Source of the DNA: a virus
Reading direction: 5' to 3' (one strand)
Length of the DNA stretch: 25,077 bases
IMG/VR virus record: IMGVR_UViG_3300024348_000225
Location: 1-25,077 of that record
Notes under the pieces: generated by a model
Told to the model about the DNA's origin: nothing
The model's database searches: none
What the model saw: only the letters and a program-made list of their open reading frames with translations
Shown: positions 17,482 through 24,507 of the stretch, in pieces
How the letters are laid out: each line of letters opens with the position of its first letter
Position numbering within the stretch: the first letter of the stretch is position 1
Position numbers and translations under genes: made by a program

Positions 17482-17662
17482 TGACTACATCCCTCAAGTA
17501 TTTTAGTTTCCGTAAAGCTTGGATGTAACCCTGACATCTATATATCTCAGAAGTATCCGTCAAACTCTCTAAGGTTTTATGTGTACCAGAGATGCGCCCA
17601 TCTAACTCCTCAATAAGCGCATCCCAGATAGCTTTATCATTGACTAGCTTTTTAAGCGACAT
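17474..17662 (-). CDS. Small conserved-type helical protein between portal and the 818-residue protein
   Basis: From the ATG at 17662 the product is 62 residues, MSLKKLVNDKAIWDALIEELDGRIS... YRCQGYIQALRKLKYLRDVVNG, nearly all helical and without membrane segments. I recall proteins of this shape next to portal genes in other marine phages, with no known function. It overlaps the portal 3' end by 11 bp and the next start by 8 bp, so all three are probably translationally coupled. An upstream in-frame ATG at 17677 has GGAG very close to it; either start could be used. A portal-associated or packaging-accessory role is possible but unsupported. Confidence 0.6.
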   Translation of the reverse strand: MSLKKLVNDKAIWDALIEELDGRISGTHKTLESLTDTSEIYRCQGYIQALRKLKYLRDVVNG

Positions 17663-19754
17663 TGCCACTGAACCCATCTTCTCCTGGTGCTGGAGCAGTA
17701 CCTACACCTATTTGTGAACCACCCCCACCAGAAGAGTCCTGAACGCCCTGTGGACCCTGTCCCTGTGGCGCTGGGCCACCTGCAGGAGGTTGCTGTGCAG
17801 ATTGGAACCCTTTCAGGATCTCTGCCTGAATAGCTGCATCAGTAATAGAGTTGGTAACCTTAGCTGGGTCAAGATCCATAGACTTAGCAATCTCACGAAT
17901 GATGTAGTCCATCTTAGCGAAAGGAGCCAAGACAGGGTTCTGTGCTACCTGCAAGAACTGCATCAAGCGCTGGGAGCGTACTTCGTTAGCCATGAGGCTC
18001 TCTGTACCTGAAGCATTAACTTCCAAGTCACCACGAATGCTAGGATCAAAGTCAAACTGCATGTTGAATGCAAAGAAAGACTTACCTAGTGGTTTGATCA
18101 GGTAGTCATCTACGTTCTTAACTACAGTGCGGATAGAACCGTTAGCTGCAGACATAAGCATAGAGATACCAGAAGCAGTACGACCTACACCAGACACACC
18201 AGTCTGACCATGTGCAAAGCTAGGGAAGCCTGTAGACTCATCAGCCAGTACACGAGCCTTATCAAAAAGCTGCATGTTCTCTTGTGCTACGTTAGGGAAC
18301 TTCGTACCAAAGATAGCCTGTCCTGGAGCGCCACCTTGACGCCTGAAGATCTTTCCTGGGTAGATAGACATATCTTGTCCTGGAACTAGGTTAGACTCAT
18401 CTACTTCAATGATCAAGTTACCCGACATTGCAGCGTTATCAATAGCCATACGCATAAAGCCGTTCATCAACGTCTGAGTATCGTCCATGTTCTCAGCAAT
18501 ACCTACACCGAAGAAGCTGTAAGGGTTATGCTCATATGGTACGGCGTAGTAAGGAATACGTGCAGGTTTGAATGGGTTAAGCACAAGACGGATCACTTCG
18601 CCGTTACACACCCATACGTTAGCATTAAGCTCATCAAGATCTTTATACTCTTTAGGGATCTTGATGCCATTCTCTTCAAGAATATCAACATCTACAAAAC
18701 CCCAGAACTCTAGGACTTCCCAACGCTCTGACTCTGGTTGAGTAGAGGCATCTTCCATAGCCTGTTCCCAGTGCTTCTGGATGTAGTCAGCACCTCTATC
18801 AATAGCTGTACCGATAGCCTCTTTCATGAAGTATGGGCGAGACTTCAATGCACGTAGCTGTGTGCGAGACATCTTGTGACGCTCTACAGTATACTCTGCA
18901 TCTGCCATTGATGATGCTTCTGGGTCTGGGTAGAAGTTCCATACAGAGACATGACTACACTCAGGTACAGTCTTAATGAGAGGCTCATAGTTGCCCTCTT
19001 CGTCCCAGTTAGGATACTCCTTATCTACAGCAAATGGACCCTTCATAACACCAGTGCCAAGCAAAGCCATCTCAAACGCCATAGAGCGAAGGTGAACAGA
19101 AGCGCCAGACTCTTGAAGCTGGTCGTGGATCTTCTTTTCCATCTTCTTAGCTGCAACCATAGCTGGGTGGAATGTTACAGTAGTAGCTGTAGTACCTACA
19201 CCCTCAATGATCTTATCAGAAATAGGTGCAAGCTTTTCTTTTAGTGGGCCAAGACGATCCTTCAATGAAGTAAGTGTCTCGCCGGGCATAAGCTTAGTAT
19301 CTGGGCCAATCAAGTAAGGCTTAGATGCTGGATCAGAGGTAACAGCTTTAAGGGCGTCACCAGCCTGTTCCGCATTAGGATCAATGTTGATATGAGCAGA
19401 TTCTACGACACCATCAGGTAGAATAGAAGGATCTACACTCATTGGGAACCTGTTGTTACCAAACAGTACGTCAATGATCTGACCATAAGCAGCAAGTGTC
19501 TTAGTTTTAGTCACCTTTACAAACACACGAGACTTCTCAGTGTCAGTGAACTTAACATCTGGACCATACAAGCCACGATAGTTGCGATAAGCTCTAAGCC
19601 AACGCTCTTCATCGCCTAGACGAGCATCTTCTGCTCTAGTGAACCTGTCAGTAACGTATGAAACTACACTACTTGCTGTAAATAGAGTGTCCTTACCGTC
19701 CTCTGCTGCAACAACATCGTCCGTCTCGAACATCATTTCATCATTTTCTGCCAT
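17652..19754 (-). CDS. Portal protein (large, podovirus/P22-like type)
   Basis: The 700-residue product starts MAENDEMMFETDD. It has FTRAEDARLGDEERWLRAYRNYRG early, the Trp- and Asp-rich VWNFYPDPEASSMADAEYTVERHKMSRTQLRAL segment in the middle, and RIPYYAVPYEHNPYSFFGVGIAENMDDTQTLMNGFMRMAIDNAAM, characteristic of large portals. The last 60 residues are a Gly/Pro/Gln-rich tail (PPAGGPAPQGQGPQG). Twelve copies form the ring through which DNA enters and leaves the head. The gene starts 2 bp after the large terminase stop, the standard terminase-portal order. At 700 residues it is longer than siphovirus portals and near P22 gp1. Confidence 0.85.
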   Translation of the reverse strand: MAENDEMMFETDDVVAAEDGKDTLFTASSVVSYVTDRFTRAEDARLGDEERWLRAYRNYRGLYGPDVKFTDTEKSRVFVKVTKTKTLAAYGQIIDVLFGNNRFPMSVDPSILPDGVVESAHINIDPNAEQAGDALKAVTSDPASKPYLIGPDTKLMPGETLTSLKDRLGPLKEKLAPISDKIIEGVGTTATTVTFHPAMVAAKKMEKKIHDQLQESGASVHLRSMAFEMALLGTGVMKGPFAVDKEYPNWDEEGNYEPLIKTVPECSHVSVWNFYPDPEASSMADAEYTVERHKMSRTQLRALKSRPYFMKEAIGTAIDRGADYIQKHWEQAMEDASTQPESERWEVLEFWGFVDVDILEENGIKIPKEYKDLDELNANVWVCNGEVIRLVLNPFKPARIPYYAVPYEHNPYSFFGVGIAENMDDTQTLMNGFMRMAIDNAAMSGNLIIEVDESNLVPGQDMSIYPGKIFRRQGGAPGQAIFGTKFPNVAQENMQLFDKARVLADESTGFPSFAHGQTGVSGVGRTASGISMLMSAANGSIRTVVKNVDDYLIKPLGKSFFAFNMQFDFDPSIRGDLEVNASGTESLMANEVRSQRLMQFLQVAQNPVLAPFAKMDYIIREIAKSMDLDPAKVTNSITDAAIQAEILKGFQSAQQPPAGGPAPQGQGPQGVQDSSGGGGSQIGVGTAPAPGEDGFSGNVA

Positions 19755-19756
19755 AC

Positions 19757-21352
19757 TTAGTATCCAAATGTTGTGTCACTAGCCTGAAAACCAGTGCGTT
19801 GTGTTGCAGGATCGTAATCCCATATGCTTTTGCTGCGTGGTCTAGTCATAATACCATAGCGCAAGGCATCATAGAGGTGGTCTTCTGAGTTTGTATCTAC
19901 ATCCTCTGGATTACGCTTATCTAGAGGTATAGATGGGATTTGAGCTATAGTATGAGTACAATTGCTAGTGAATACGAGACGTGGGGCTTCTGTATATTCA
20001 TCAACCTGTAAACGTCTGTGTATTTCGTTCTTACCTGAGACACGAGAGCCTCTAGATCTATCAGAAGGCCTCCATCTACAGCCCTTCATGTTCATCTGCT
20101 CTGCAAGGCTAGGACCAGTATCACCCCTGTTATGCCACAAGGAGGAGTCAAGAACACCATATAGTATCTTACCATCACCCGCTTCTAAGTCTAAGATCAT
20201 ATCTGCTAGATCAGAAGCAGTAACTTTAGAACAGTACAACTCTCTATACACGATAAGTTGCTCAGCAGGTGATACAGCAAACCACAAAACACCAGTGAAG
20301 GAACCATACCCGTAGTCACAGGCTCTAAACCGAGGCCAAGACTCTGGAATGTCAAAAGCTTCTACTACATGCTTGTTCCTGTCAAACTCAGGAAACGCTG
20401 CACCCTCGTTAATATCCCAGTTACCCTCTAGAAGCTGCTTACGCTGATGCTCAGGAAGAGACAAAAGCATAGCTTCATAGTCACCAGAGTCTGACAGATA
20501 AGGGTTATCAAACAAACTTGCAGGAATAAACCTACGCTTAAATAGAGGCTCACCTTCTTTACTGTGGCCTTTAGGAAACGTAATGGTTTCACCAGACTCA
20601 ATATCCGTAGCCCAGAAAGCTTTACCAGAAGGGCTAGGGTCAATAAACATCTTCTTAACCCAACTATGCCCAGCGCCACCAGGGTTAGTTGTACCTCGCA
20701 TATACAAACCTAACTCTTTACTAGAACTACGTAGTCGTGAACGCATATAATTCCAAGCGTAGGGAGTACCCCACTGAGTAAGTTCGTCGAAGCCAATCCA
20801 GTTAAACGCCTGACCTTGGTAGCGCATAACGTCCATGTCTTTATCCAAGTAAGACATCCAGAGTCTACCACCACGAGGTGAAGTCCATTGTGACTTGCGC
20901 TCTGACCACTTAATGCCAGGAATAGCCTTGGGATATAGTTCTTGGCTCTTCTGGATAAGCTCTCGTAGTTCTTCCGTAGTATGTCGTACTAGCAGACCAG
21001 AGAAGTTAGGGTCATTGAGGCCGTGTAAGGGGTCTGCAAGCATCGCATAAGACTTTCCGCCACCCGCAGCACCCCCGTAGAGTACTTCACGCTCAGAGGA
21101 GCTTAGAAAGGCTGTCTGTGGCCCTGCGTTAGGCTTGAATACAACGTCCTGTGCATCTTCGATGTTATACTCTGCAGATTTAACTTCAGCGTAAACGGTT
21201 TCAACCTGCTTAGGTGTCTTCCCCTCCTGTGATGGAGTAGGCTCCGATGTTTTGCTCTTCGAGTTTTTTGATCTCGTGTAGCGTTTCTTCGAGGCGCTTG
21301 GCAAGCTTGCGTTTAATTGCAGCAGTTTTTTTACGTCTTCGCTCAATTTCAA
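19757..21352 (-). CDS. terL: Terminase large subunit
   Basis: The 531-residue protein has an ATPase with Walker A GGAAGGGKS (residues 93-101), Walker B NWIGFDE (184-190) and coupling motif TTNPGG (221-226). A nuclease domain follows with acidic residues in RACDYGYG (D346), GVLDSS (D402) and EDHLYDALRYG (D491 or D495). It drives DNA into the procapsid through the portal and cuts concatemers. There is no ATG before the Walker A lysine (the first is at residue 104), so translation must begin at a TTG: either 21352, only three codons after an in-frame stop, or 21346. GAAGAGAG lies just upstream. The first 48 codons overlap the preceding gene in another frame. The basic N-terminus (SKKRYTRSKNSKSK) may be disordered. 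Confidence 0.92.
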   Translation of the reverse strand: MKLSEDVKKLLQLNASLPSASKKRYTRSKNSKSKTSEPTPSQEGKTPKQVETVYAEVKSAEYNIEDAQDVVFKPNAGPQTAFLSSSEREVLYGGAAGGGKSYAMLADPLHGLNDPNFSGLLVRHTTEELRELIQKSQELYPKAIPGIKWSERKSQWTSPRGGRLWMSYLDKDMDVMRYQGQAFNWIGFDELTQWGTPYAWNYMRSRLRSSSKELGLYMRGTTNPGGAGHSWVKKMFIDPSPSGKAFWATDIESGETITFPKGHSKEGEPLFKRRFIPASLFDNPYLSDSGDYEAMLLSLPEHQRKQLLEGNWDINEGAAFPEFDRNKHVVEAFDIPESWPRFRACDYGYGSFTGVLWFAVSPAEQLIVYRELYCSKVTASDLADMILDLEAGDGKILYGVLDSSLWHNRGDTGPSLAEQMNMKGCRWRPSDRSRGSRVSGKNEIHRRLQVDEYTEAPRLVFTSNCTHTIAQIPSIPLDKRNPEDVDTNSEDHLYDALRYGIMTRPRSKSIWDYDPATQRTGFQASDTTFGY

Positions 21353-21640: not shown

Positions 21641-22012
21641 TTACTCGTTATTACCTTCTTTAGGTGGAAGATAGAAGATGCCACCCCCAGAAGAGGAAAC
21701 ATCTACTTTGTCTACTTTACCAAGTCCTGCACGATCTAGCAAGTCTTTAGCTGCAGCCATCTTCTCTTTTATGCCAAGCTCTGTAGGATCATACAAAGCG
21801 TTAACCATAGCCATAGCAGCTTTTGGTGCAGTACGAGAGAAGTAGGTGCGTGTTGCGTCATTGATCTCATCTTTAAGTGCTTCTACAATCAAGCGTGTAG
21901 GCGTGTTTTCACTATAACCTGCCAACTTCTTGGCAAGAACAACGTCACCGCCAGCTTCGTCGAAGAGTACTTCTAGAAACTTTTGCTGATTCTCTGTTAG
22001 ATTTCTTGCCAT
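21641..22012 (-). CDS. terS: Terminase small subunit-like protein
   Basis: The 123-residue protein has an N-terminal helical domain (NLTENQQKFLEVLFDEAGGDVVLAKKLAGYSENTP, residues 4-38) that looks like the HTH of small terminases. Helical oligomerisation segments follow, and the protein ends in a short Gly/Ser linker and acidic tail. Small terminases bind the packaging site and stimulate the large subunit. The position just ahead of the large subunit and the length fit. GAGGA lies 9 bases before the ATG. The 65-bp upstream gap contains a TATAACTA box, so packaging genes may have their own promoter. The family is divergent, so the call rests on position and pattern. Confidence 0.75.
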   Translation of the reverse strand: MARNLTENQQKFLEVLFDEAGGDVVLAKKLAGYSENTPTRLIVEALKDEINDATRTYFSRTAPKAAMAMVNALYDPTELGIKEKMAAAKDLLDRAGLGKVDKVDVSSSGGGIFYLPPKEGNNE

Positions 22013-22077: not shown

Positions 22078-22245
22078 TTATCCCTTAGCGTAATAACGCT
22101 CTTTAATCTCACCACGAGAAATGCCAATATCTCTCAGTTCTGCATCTGTCATGTGAGTCAAGATGAAGAAGTCAGCACGGCGTTGTTGAGACTTTACGAT
22201 ACCCTGATGAAAGCGCAGGATAGCTGCTTTGAGTTTGTTTAGCAT
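22078..22245 (-). CDS. DUF1127 (YjiS-like) small protein
   Basis: From the ATG at 22245 the product is 55 residues, basic and helical. Its C-terminal half HMTDAELRDIGISRGEIKERYY matches the DUF1127 signature (L-x-D-x-x-L-x-D-I-G-[IL]-x-R-x-x-I). The family is most abundant in Alphaproteobacteria, where members have been linked to RNA binding and to regulation of stress and nutrient metabolism. AAAGG is 10 bases upstream of this ATG and lies inside the longer alternative from 22284, so I prefer the short form, which is also the usual family length. It stands alone between two gaps with TATAACTA boxes, like a moron-type insertion. A role in reprogramming host RNA or transcription is inference. 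Confidence 0.8.
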   Translation of the reverse strand: MLNKLKAAILRFHQGIVKSQQRRADFFILTHMTDAELRDIGISRGEIKERYYAKG

Positions 22246-22297
22246 AGTTATATAACCTTTGTATGTAAGGACTGCACAGCGCAACCCTATTATACAC

Positions 22298-23540: not shown

Positions 23541-23813
23541 TCACTTCTTCCCTGCTTTGCTGTTACGGGGGATACTTCTGTTCTTAGCTGGTGTCTGTAC
23601 ACGTAGGTTAGACTTAGTATTGTTACGTGGGTTGCCATCCTTGTGGTCAACATCCTTGCCGTCACCCTTAGAGACTAGGCCACCCTTCTCCATAGCATAA
23701 CGTGCCTTCTTACGAGAGCGGTTATCAGCCATACGCTTAGGCGACTTGTCATACTTACCTTCACCACTCATGGTGTAGTTACGATTAGTCTTCTTCTTGG
23801 GGGGTGTCGGCAT
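23541..23813 (-). CDS. Tiny HNH-like protein
   Basis: The 90-residue product is Lys/Arg-rich. It contains DVDHKDGNPRNN (residues 54-65) followed by NLRVQTPAKNRS (69-80), the core of the HNH_3-type endonuclease motif (DHxxGNxxxN...NLR...T..xN). The usual N-terminal strand of the fold is short or missing, so it may be a minimal nuclease or an inactive DNA-binding derivative. HNH proteins next to terminases can assist DNA cleavage during packaging, and this gene is six genes upstream of the terminase pair. MEKGGLVSKG at 41-50 is another copy of the GG-Lys motif. GGAAGAG precedes the ATG. Confidence 0.65.
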   Translation of the reverse strand: MPTPPKKKTNRNYTMSGEGKYDKSPKRMADNRSRKKARYAMEKGGLVSKGDGKDVDHKDGNPRNNTKSNLRVQTPAKNRSIPRNSKAGKK

Positions 23814-24060
23814 AGGGTCTCTTCCTGTCTGGGTCTAACACATCTCTGCGAGATAAGTGACCCTCTAAGTACATAGCTCTCTCTACGTGATCCAAGGAGT
23901 ACTTCACTCCAGTGTCTGCCTCTATAGCAGCCCTCACATAGAATACGTCACTTCTAGGGATATGAATACGTCTGAGTTTAGGTGTGTTACCGTCCGCTAA
24001 TGCAGAGTAAAACTCTTCTAATACGTCATCAGATGCGTATAGTTGTATGTCTTTAGTCAT
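23785..24060 (-). CDS. First small gene of the leftward operon, unknown function
   Basis: From the ATG at 24060 the product is 91 residues, MTKDIQLYASDDVLEEFYSALADGNTPKLRRIHIPRSDVFYVRAAIEADTG, then VKYSLDHVERAMYLEGHL and an acidic-basic tail. It is a mixed alpha/beta soluble protein without recognised motifs. A GTG at 24072 would add four residues. Neither start has a clear ribosome site, and a 74-nt hairpin sits 15-27 bases upstream. The 3' end overlaps the HNH-like gene by 29 bp. As the first gene it could be a small DNA-binding or regulatory protein, but that is only position-based. Confidence 0.6.
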   Translation of the reverse strand: MTKDIQLYASDDVLEEFYSALADGNTPKLRRIHIPRSDVFYVRAAIEADTGVKYSLDHVERAMYLEGHLSRRDVLDPDRKRPYADTPQEED

Positions 24061-24087
24061 AGGTGTCAACACTTATATGAAAATAAG

Positions 24088-24161
24088 TGGTACGTGTCGC
24101 AATACAAATATTGTTAGGGAGACAGGGAGGAGAGTAACACTATTGAGTGTGACACGTACCA
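24088..24161 (-). promoter_or_regulatory. 74-nt nested inverted repeat (large hairpin) upstream of the first leftward gene
   Basis: The outer arms TGGTACGTGTCGCA (24088-24101) and TGTGACACGTACCA (24148-24161) pair over 14 positions with one G-T. The inner arms AATATTGTTA (24107-24116) and TAACACTATT (24135-24144) pair at 9 of 10. The 18-base loop is pure purine except one C (plus strand gggagacagggaggagag); in leftward RNA it reads CUCUCCUCCCUGUCUCCC, like an anti-Shine-Dalgarno. A structured 5' leader, a cruciform or a packaging/terminase site are possible. Confidence 0.7.
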
Positions 24162-24170
24162 GTAAAGTAT

Positions 24171-24183
24171 AACTCTTAGAGTT
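24171..24183. promoter_or_regulatory. Palindrome AACTCTTAGAGTT, candidate operator 1
   Basis: Perfect 13-nt palindrome. It shares the 11-mer ACTCTTAGAGT with the copy 84 bp away at 24255. Confidence 0.5.
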
Positions 24184-24254
24184 CTTACTGCTCTATAAAG
24201 TTAGACTATAAGAACAGTAACACGGATATATATGTATTACAAGTAAATAGTTTG

Positions 24255-24278
24255 TACTCTTAGAGTAATACTCTAGAG
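24255..24278. promoter_or_regulatory. Palindrome TACTCTTAGAGTA plus adjacent CTCTAGAG, candidate operator 2
   Basis: Perfect 13-nt palindrome (24255-24267) followed by an 8-nt palindrome CTCTAGAG (24271-24278). An ACTCTT half-site follows at 24285-24290. Confidence 0.5.
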
Positions 24279-24364
24279 AGTTACACTCTTCCTATGTCCA
24301 ATGATCTAAATGTTACACATTCTGAATATGTTTAACTACTTAGAAGTAATACTATCATATTTGT

Positions 24365-24412
24365 ATTACTCTTCTTTAGTTATACTCTTCTTTATGTATT
24401 ACTCTTTTTATA
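24365..24412. repeat. Three imperfect tandem copies of (A/T)TACTCTTCTTTA
   Basis: Units begin near 24365, 24382 and 24398 (spacing 16-17 bp): ATTACTCTTCTTTAGTT, ATACTCTTCTTTATGT, ATTACTCTTTTTATATG. All contain the ACTCTT half-site of the nearby palindromes. AGTAATAC at 24345-24352 pairs with GTATTACT at 24363-24370. Confidence 0.6.
24377..24384 (-). promoter_or_regulatory. TATAACTA box inside the tandem repeats
   Basis: Minus-strand context AAGAGTATAACTAAAG. Same octamer as in the other leftward intergenic gaps. Confidence 0.35.
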
Positions 24413-24433
24413 TGTTTAACTATAAGTGTTTAA

Positions 24434-24447
24434 CTCTCTCTCTCTCT
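24434..24447. repeat. (CT)7 microsatellite
   Basis: Perfect CT repeat bounded by TTAA-type sequence on both sides (taa-(CT)7-taa). A polypurine tract on the minus strand. Confidence 0.8.
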
Positions 24448-24507
24448 TAACAGTTATAAGGATTTCACATTACGTGTCAATCCATAAAATGATGTACTAC
24501 CCCTAAA

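Follow-up and report, generated by a model that had tools for sequence, protein, structure and literature searches.

The hairpin noted ahead of the late operon of an HMO-2011-type podovirus proves genuine, and it belongs to a widespread RNA element, apparently undescribed so far. Strong evidence backs the structure of this hairpin, its strand, and its conservation. That a single-copy RNA element survives while its stem sequence is replaced completely argues strongly that it has a function. What might this function be? The most likely answer, which we offer tentatively and from sequence, is that the hairpin acts as an anti-Shine-Dalgarno (anti-SD) leader or small RNA that would damp the translation of early, and perhaps host, messages.

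The hairpin and its genomic setting

The window, i.e., the whole stretch of DNA analyzed here, is a viral record of 25,077 bases from an HMO-2011-type podovirus, a member of a very common marine group. The nearest named relatives at the hairpin end are Roseobacter phages CRP-603, CRP-207, CRP-1, and CRP-2, and Puniceispirillum phage HMO-2011. In CRP-603, a non-coding stretch separates rightward early genes from leftward late genes, and the hairpin is the last feature of the non-coding early/late stretch before the first late gene. The late genes of the window, all on the leftward (-) strand, include those for the portal (17652-19754), the large terminase (19757-21352), the small terminase (21641-22012), and a small DUF1127 protein (22078-22284; Pfam PF06568, 28.6 bits against a cut-off of 23.3). 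Of 27 relatives, 23 have a DUF1127 gene at a similar place in the late operon, whether or not they carry a C/U-loop hairpin. The first gene of the late operon (gene 1, 23785-24060, start at 24060) encodes a conserved 91-aa protein (HIPKSDVFYVRAAIEADTGVRYTLDHVERAMYLEG in relatives) that has no match in Pfam or PHROG, and a search for host genomes encoding it gave only two metagenome-assembled contigs. Gene 1 has no ribosome site, as had been claimed from the sequence, and the same absence is common to its relatives. A conserved -35-like TTGAC box occupies the usual position of the ribosome site ahead of this gene.

The late-leader hairpin lies at 24088-24161 on the leftward strand. Its outer arms, 24148-24161 (5' in the RNA) and 24088-24101 (3'), form an inverted repeat of 14-nt arms spaced by 46 nt. 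The sequence-only reading located this repeat correctly and overcounted its pairs: the arms are complementary at 13 of 14 positions rather than all 14, with an A.C mismatch at one outer pair of the leftward RNA, and the inner helix of that RNA is broken into shorter pieces. Its judgment that such a 74-base hairpin is unlikely by chance was borne out by folding. For 111 nt of leftward RNA, the folding energy is -25.4 kcal/mol, and its shuffles average -14.1 (z -4.2; 2 of 200 equally good). The opposite strand reaches -29.6 (z -3.4; 0 of 200 equally good). The C/U-rich loop CUCUCCUCCCUGUCUCCC (24117-24134, leftward) is complementary to SD-type ribosome sites and matches the anti-SD core described earlier. 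The leftward RNA immediately 3' of the stem reads ACUUAUUUUC. Between the main stem and gene 1 lies a small second hairpin (24070-24089, leftward; CACUUAU..AUAAGUG with a U-rich loop), which includes a U-rich tail that is also found in relatives. A literature search found no hairpins described in these phages, and promoters in the region likewise went unmentioned in the papers searched.

Conservation of the leftward RNA

Four scans of viral contigs, using the gene 1 protein from four phages, gathered several hundred loci. These yielded 172 distinct 150-nt upstream regions that fell into 51 clusters sharing <30% of 7-mers. By a strand-neutral hairpin score, 40 of the 51 clusters scored above all of their own shuffles. 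At least 32 of the 51 qualified under a rule combining a long stem with a C/U-rich loop, in each case directly ahead of the first leftward gene. In most clusters, pairing extends across 15-30 positions despite unrelated stem sequences, for example GGTACGTGTC in the window, ACGTGCTGCGAGTAAC in CRP-2, and GTGATGTTGTAGG and AGTATTACTAGAGCTTC in two contigs (L057 and L064). The case rests on this comparison between clusters, not on an alignment within the GGTACGTG group, where MAFFT revealed few double changes because the outer arms are nearly invariant.

The pairing pattern also identifies the strand. Under strand-neutral scoring, the non-Watson-Crick positions read in the leftward sense comprised 113 G.U and 31 A.C, and the balance favored G.U in 30 clusters and A.C in 7. 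This excess of G.U indicates that the acting molecule is the leftward-strand RNA.

Unlike the stem, the loop is conserved in sequence. TCTCCTC was present at the site in 123 of the 172 sequences, GTCTCC in 118, and CCTCC in 91. The same three motifs were found 0, 0, and 0 times on the complementary strand at the site, and 0, 0, and 1 times among 240 equal-size stretches taken further upstream. In other words, it is the order of the loop (UCUCCUC, GUCUCC) that is conserved, beyond composition alone. The culturable phages CRP-2, CRP-207, and CRP-603 carry the hairpin. A C/U-loop hairpin is absent from HMO-2011, CRP-1, CRP-345, CRP-9, CRP-13, and several contig clusters, and thus the element, though common, does not occur throughout the group.

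The element occurs once per genome. Across the sequences searched, a covariance model of the window's subgroup gave no match outside the known place, and a structural scan of the complete CRP-603 genome gave one outstanding match, again at the known place; neither search gave a convincing second copy elsewhere. No Rfam 15 covariance model matched the window region or 15 relatives at the gathering score, and nothing in the Rfam search of the hairpin region came close to threshold.

Possible roles of the leader and its loop

The hairpin is located between two promoter-like boxes, which are putative promoters identified as consensus matches on the leftward strand. P1 (24453-24480), ~320 nt upstream of the hairpin, consists of TTGACA (24475-24480), a 16-nt spacer, and TATAAC (24453-24458). 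Its form, TTGAC[AT]-16-TA[TA]AAC, occurs in most clusters, roughly 200-440 nt further upstream. P3 (24042-24069) consists of TTGACA (24064-24069), 16 nt, and TACAAC (24042-24047). The form TTGAC[AT]-16-TA[CA]AAC was kept in 228 of 230 relatives in a search that allowed spacers of 15-18 nt, and its spacing is constant among relatives while the position of the ATG shifts. Because P3 overlaps the coding start of gene 1, a transcript beginning there could not include that gene's start codon. The P3 box of CRP-9 and CRP-13 lies entirely upstream of gene 1. A short tandem repeat is present right after the P1 -10 box (24430-24449, leftward) and at the same place in relatives; it varies by lineage (GAGAGAGAG, GTAGTAGTAG, GCAGGAGCAG, GGGGGTAAGGGGG) and showed no co-variation with the loop. 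The leader region (24170-24450) also contains many palindrome-like copies of AGAGTNNNACTCT / AGTGTTACACT, which are possible operator or origin repeats.

How might such a leader act? In the proposed mechanism, the conserved RNA structure would form part of the 5' leader transcribed ahead of the leftward late genes in HMO-2011-type phages. P1, together with P2 in some relatives, would produce a leader of ~300-400 nt with the long hairpin at its end. The sole role of the stem would be to hold open a 20-30 nt C/U-rich loop, and the loop would pair with purine-rich SD sites of the AGAGGAGA / AGGAGACA type, which are commonest among the divergent early genes and probably serve some host genes as well. 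Such pairing would block early and host translation as late transcription increases, and late genes, which carry weaker sites such as AUAAGGA, would be less affected. The mechanism is concrete and testable in that one small RNA could silence a whole class of messages, with early and late genes being distinguished by the type of ribosome site. A further claim, that an RNA linked to the late operon works in trans as an early-to-late translation switch and silences many early and host messages together, is somewhat doubtful. The switch reading takes the loop as antisense to the common early ribosome-site motif (AGAGGAGA/AGGAGACA).

Since the window itself carries no early genes, the target comparison was drawn from related genomes. 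In CRP-603, the loop GUGUCUCCUCUCCCUCCUC perfectly complements 11 nt at the helicase gene's ribosome site, AGAGGAGACAC (-19.2 kcal/mol), and 9 nt at two more early sites, both AGGAGACAC (-19.3 and -16.4 kcal/mol). To widen the sample, up to 20 kb of early sequence (~31 kb for the L002 genome) was taken from each of 27 related contigs, together with late regions for 13; starts were set by a simple rule that itself uses the 16S anti-SD. On early sites, a phage's own loop paired better than composition-shuffled loops in 20 of 21 genomes and, in nearly all of 22, better than the same loop read in reverse (p 1.4e-6). Pairs of -14 kcal/mol or lower, counted as strong, were formed at 124 of 413 early sites (30%) versus 35 of 260 late sites (13%; p 6e-7), in related genomes that are not independent. 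The own loop was also slightly better than foreign-phage loops on own early sites (-0.16 kcal/mol; permutation p 0.008, kinship ignored). In the L002 genome, the nearest relative of the window, the early signal was weak (z -1.4) and the own loop was 0.16 kcal/mol worse than the reversed loop on early sites. Early and late sites differ in type: in the 27 related genomes, GAGGAG occurred at 75 of 784 early ribosome sites versus 0 of 283 late ones, and TAAGGA was commoner in late sites (23 of 283 versus 19 of 784).

The own loop was better than the reversed loop, on average, at late sites too, so simple anti-SD complementarity accounts for much of the signal. Furthermore, the early ribosome sites are no different in relatives with a hairpin but no C/U loop (GAGGAG 10 of 136), so the early sites did not evolve for the loop. 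A coupling of loop presence to early-site type was thus rejected, as phages without the loop show no difference. The idea that the loop pairs with the purine-rich tract at the P1 transcript start was likewise rejected: such pairing is strong in some phages, but own pairs did no better than swapped pairs (p 0.38). Taken together, the comparison is evidence for an anti-SD loop that favors early sites, short of a proven switch. The sequence-only reading had listed a regulatory leader RNA with such a loop among its options, and this option is supported by the kept structure, the changing stems, the leftward wobbles, and the good pairing with ribosome sites.

Other readings of the leader were weighed, the main rivals being an attenuator and a protein-binding leader. 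One possibility, rather unlikely, is that the hairpin and a U-rich tail form an intrinsic terminator of a P1/P2 leader, with a phage factor permitting late read-through, in functional analogy to the lambda PR'-tR' leader; late mRNA would then start from P3, beyond the terminator. The stem is followed by TTTT within 14 nt in 17 of 32 hairpin clusters versus 11% in the background (the window's tail is ACUUAUUUU), the tail is 50% T on the leftward side versus 34% on the other, and promoter-like boxes flank the hairpin on both sides. The observation of no T-run after the stem had earlier been used to dismiss a simple terminator. Given the window's ACUUAUUUUC and a run of at least four U in about half of the related clusters, the dismissal does not stand. 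A U-run after the stem fits attenuation of late transcription, and also a leader set free as a small RNA. However, stems of 20-30 pairs with loops of 20-30 nt are unlike those of ordinary terminators, about half of the clusters have C/U-rich tails without a U-run, and attenuation leaves the conserved UCUCCUC loop unexplained. It would also mean that gene 1, which is conserved as a protein, could be produced solely via read-through.

Alternatively, the C/U loop may be a single-stranded site at which Rho, ribosomal protein S1, or a phage protein, perhaps the product of gene 1 or the DUF1127 gene, controls late expression in cis. Rho and S1 prefer G-poor, YC-rich RNA. The loop has this composition, gene 1 lacks an SD, and the DUF1127 gene recurs in the late operon, but binding of this kind would not call for the specific order of UCUCCUC and GUCUCC, nor for own loops that outperform shuffled loops at ribosome sites. 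We regard protein binding as unlikely. It is quite improbable that the loop acts in cis by pairing with ribosome sites of its own late transcript, such as that of gene 2. In the two sequences examined, the gene 2 site does pair with the loop, at -14.7 kcal/mol for the window and -13.4 for CRP-603, but the same stretch is also constrained by the conserved C-terminus of gene 1 (DPDRKR).

A DNA element, i.e., a cruciform or a replication or packaging (cos/pac) site, is very improbable: the arms are nearly perfect, each genome has one copy, and the terminase genes are 2 kb away, but the wobble asymmetry is a mark of RNA that disfavors the cruciform raised earlier, and the cos/pac role raised with it has no support from contigs, which read through the hairpin (L009 extends 4 kb upstream) with no pile-up of ends there, the ends being scattered contig ends rather than mapped genome ends, or from two related genomes deposited as circular. 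Many contigs, including the window, L002, L003, L005, L006, L007, and others, stop ~0.9-1.1 kb upstream of gene 1, in an intergenic region well away from the hairpin. These stops hint that either the assembly breaks or the genome physically ends in that region.

Comparison with known systems

The closest parallels to an anti-SD loop of this kind come from bacterial small RNAs. The alpha-r14/NfeR1 RNA, which silences mRNAs by acting at their ribosome sites, has three anti-SD loops with CCUCCUCCC, and it was described as having a conserved C/U anti-SD loop and a freely varying stem (PMC10746234). In Rhodobacter, the CcsR sRNAs are co-transcribed with the DUF1127 protein CcaF1, which aids CcsR maturation (PMC10253847). 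The phage element resembles the cuckoo RNAs, alpha-r14/NfeR1, and CcsR in its conserved C/U anti-SD loop, its free stems, and its alphaproteobacterial hosts, and it resembles CcsR in having a DUF1127 gene in the same transcription unit. This co-occurrence is suggestive only, as the gene is also present in three of four contigs without the C/U loop. The differences are considerable. Cuckoo and alpha-r14 RNAs have several hairpins (three in alpha-r14) and a fixed CCUCCUCCC, whereas each phage genome has one hairpin with a much longer stem and a 20-30 nt loop. The exact 9-mer CCUCCUCCC occurs in 17 of the 172 relatives and is absent from the window, whose loop has CUCCUCCC preceded by U. Furthermore, the phage element, known here from sequence alone, is phage-borne and stands ahead of a late operon. 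Because it has neither the exact 9-mer nor several hairpins, it is not classified as a cuckoo/alpha-r14 member.

Among phages, the PR' leader (6S RNA) and tR' of lambda place a promoter, a short leader, and a terminator ahead of the late operon. The arrangement described here is similar, with a promoter-like box, a short leader, and a terminator-like hairpin before the late operon, but it differs in its large C/U loop, its inconstant U-run, and the lack of a known antiterminator. The phage antisense RNAs sar of P22 and OOP and aQ of lambda lower the expression of phage mRNAs by pairing with them (PMC12197685). Pairing of a phage RNA with mRNA is likewise what we propose here. While sar, OOP, and aQ each have one main target, a general anti-SD loop could reach many.
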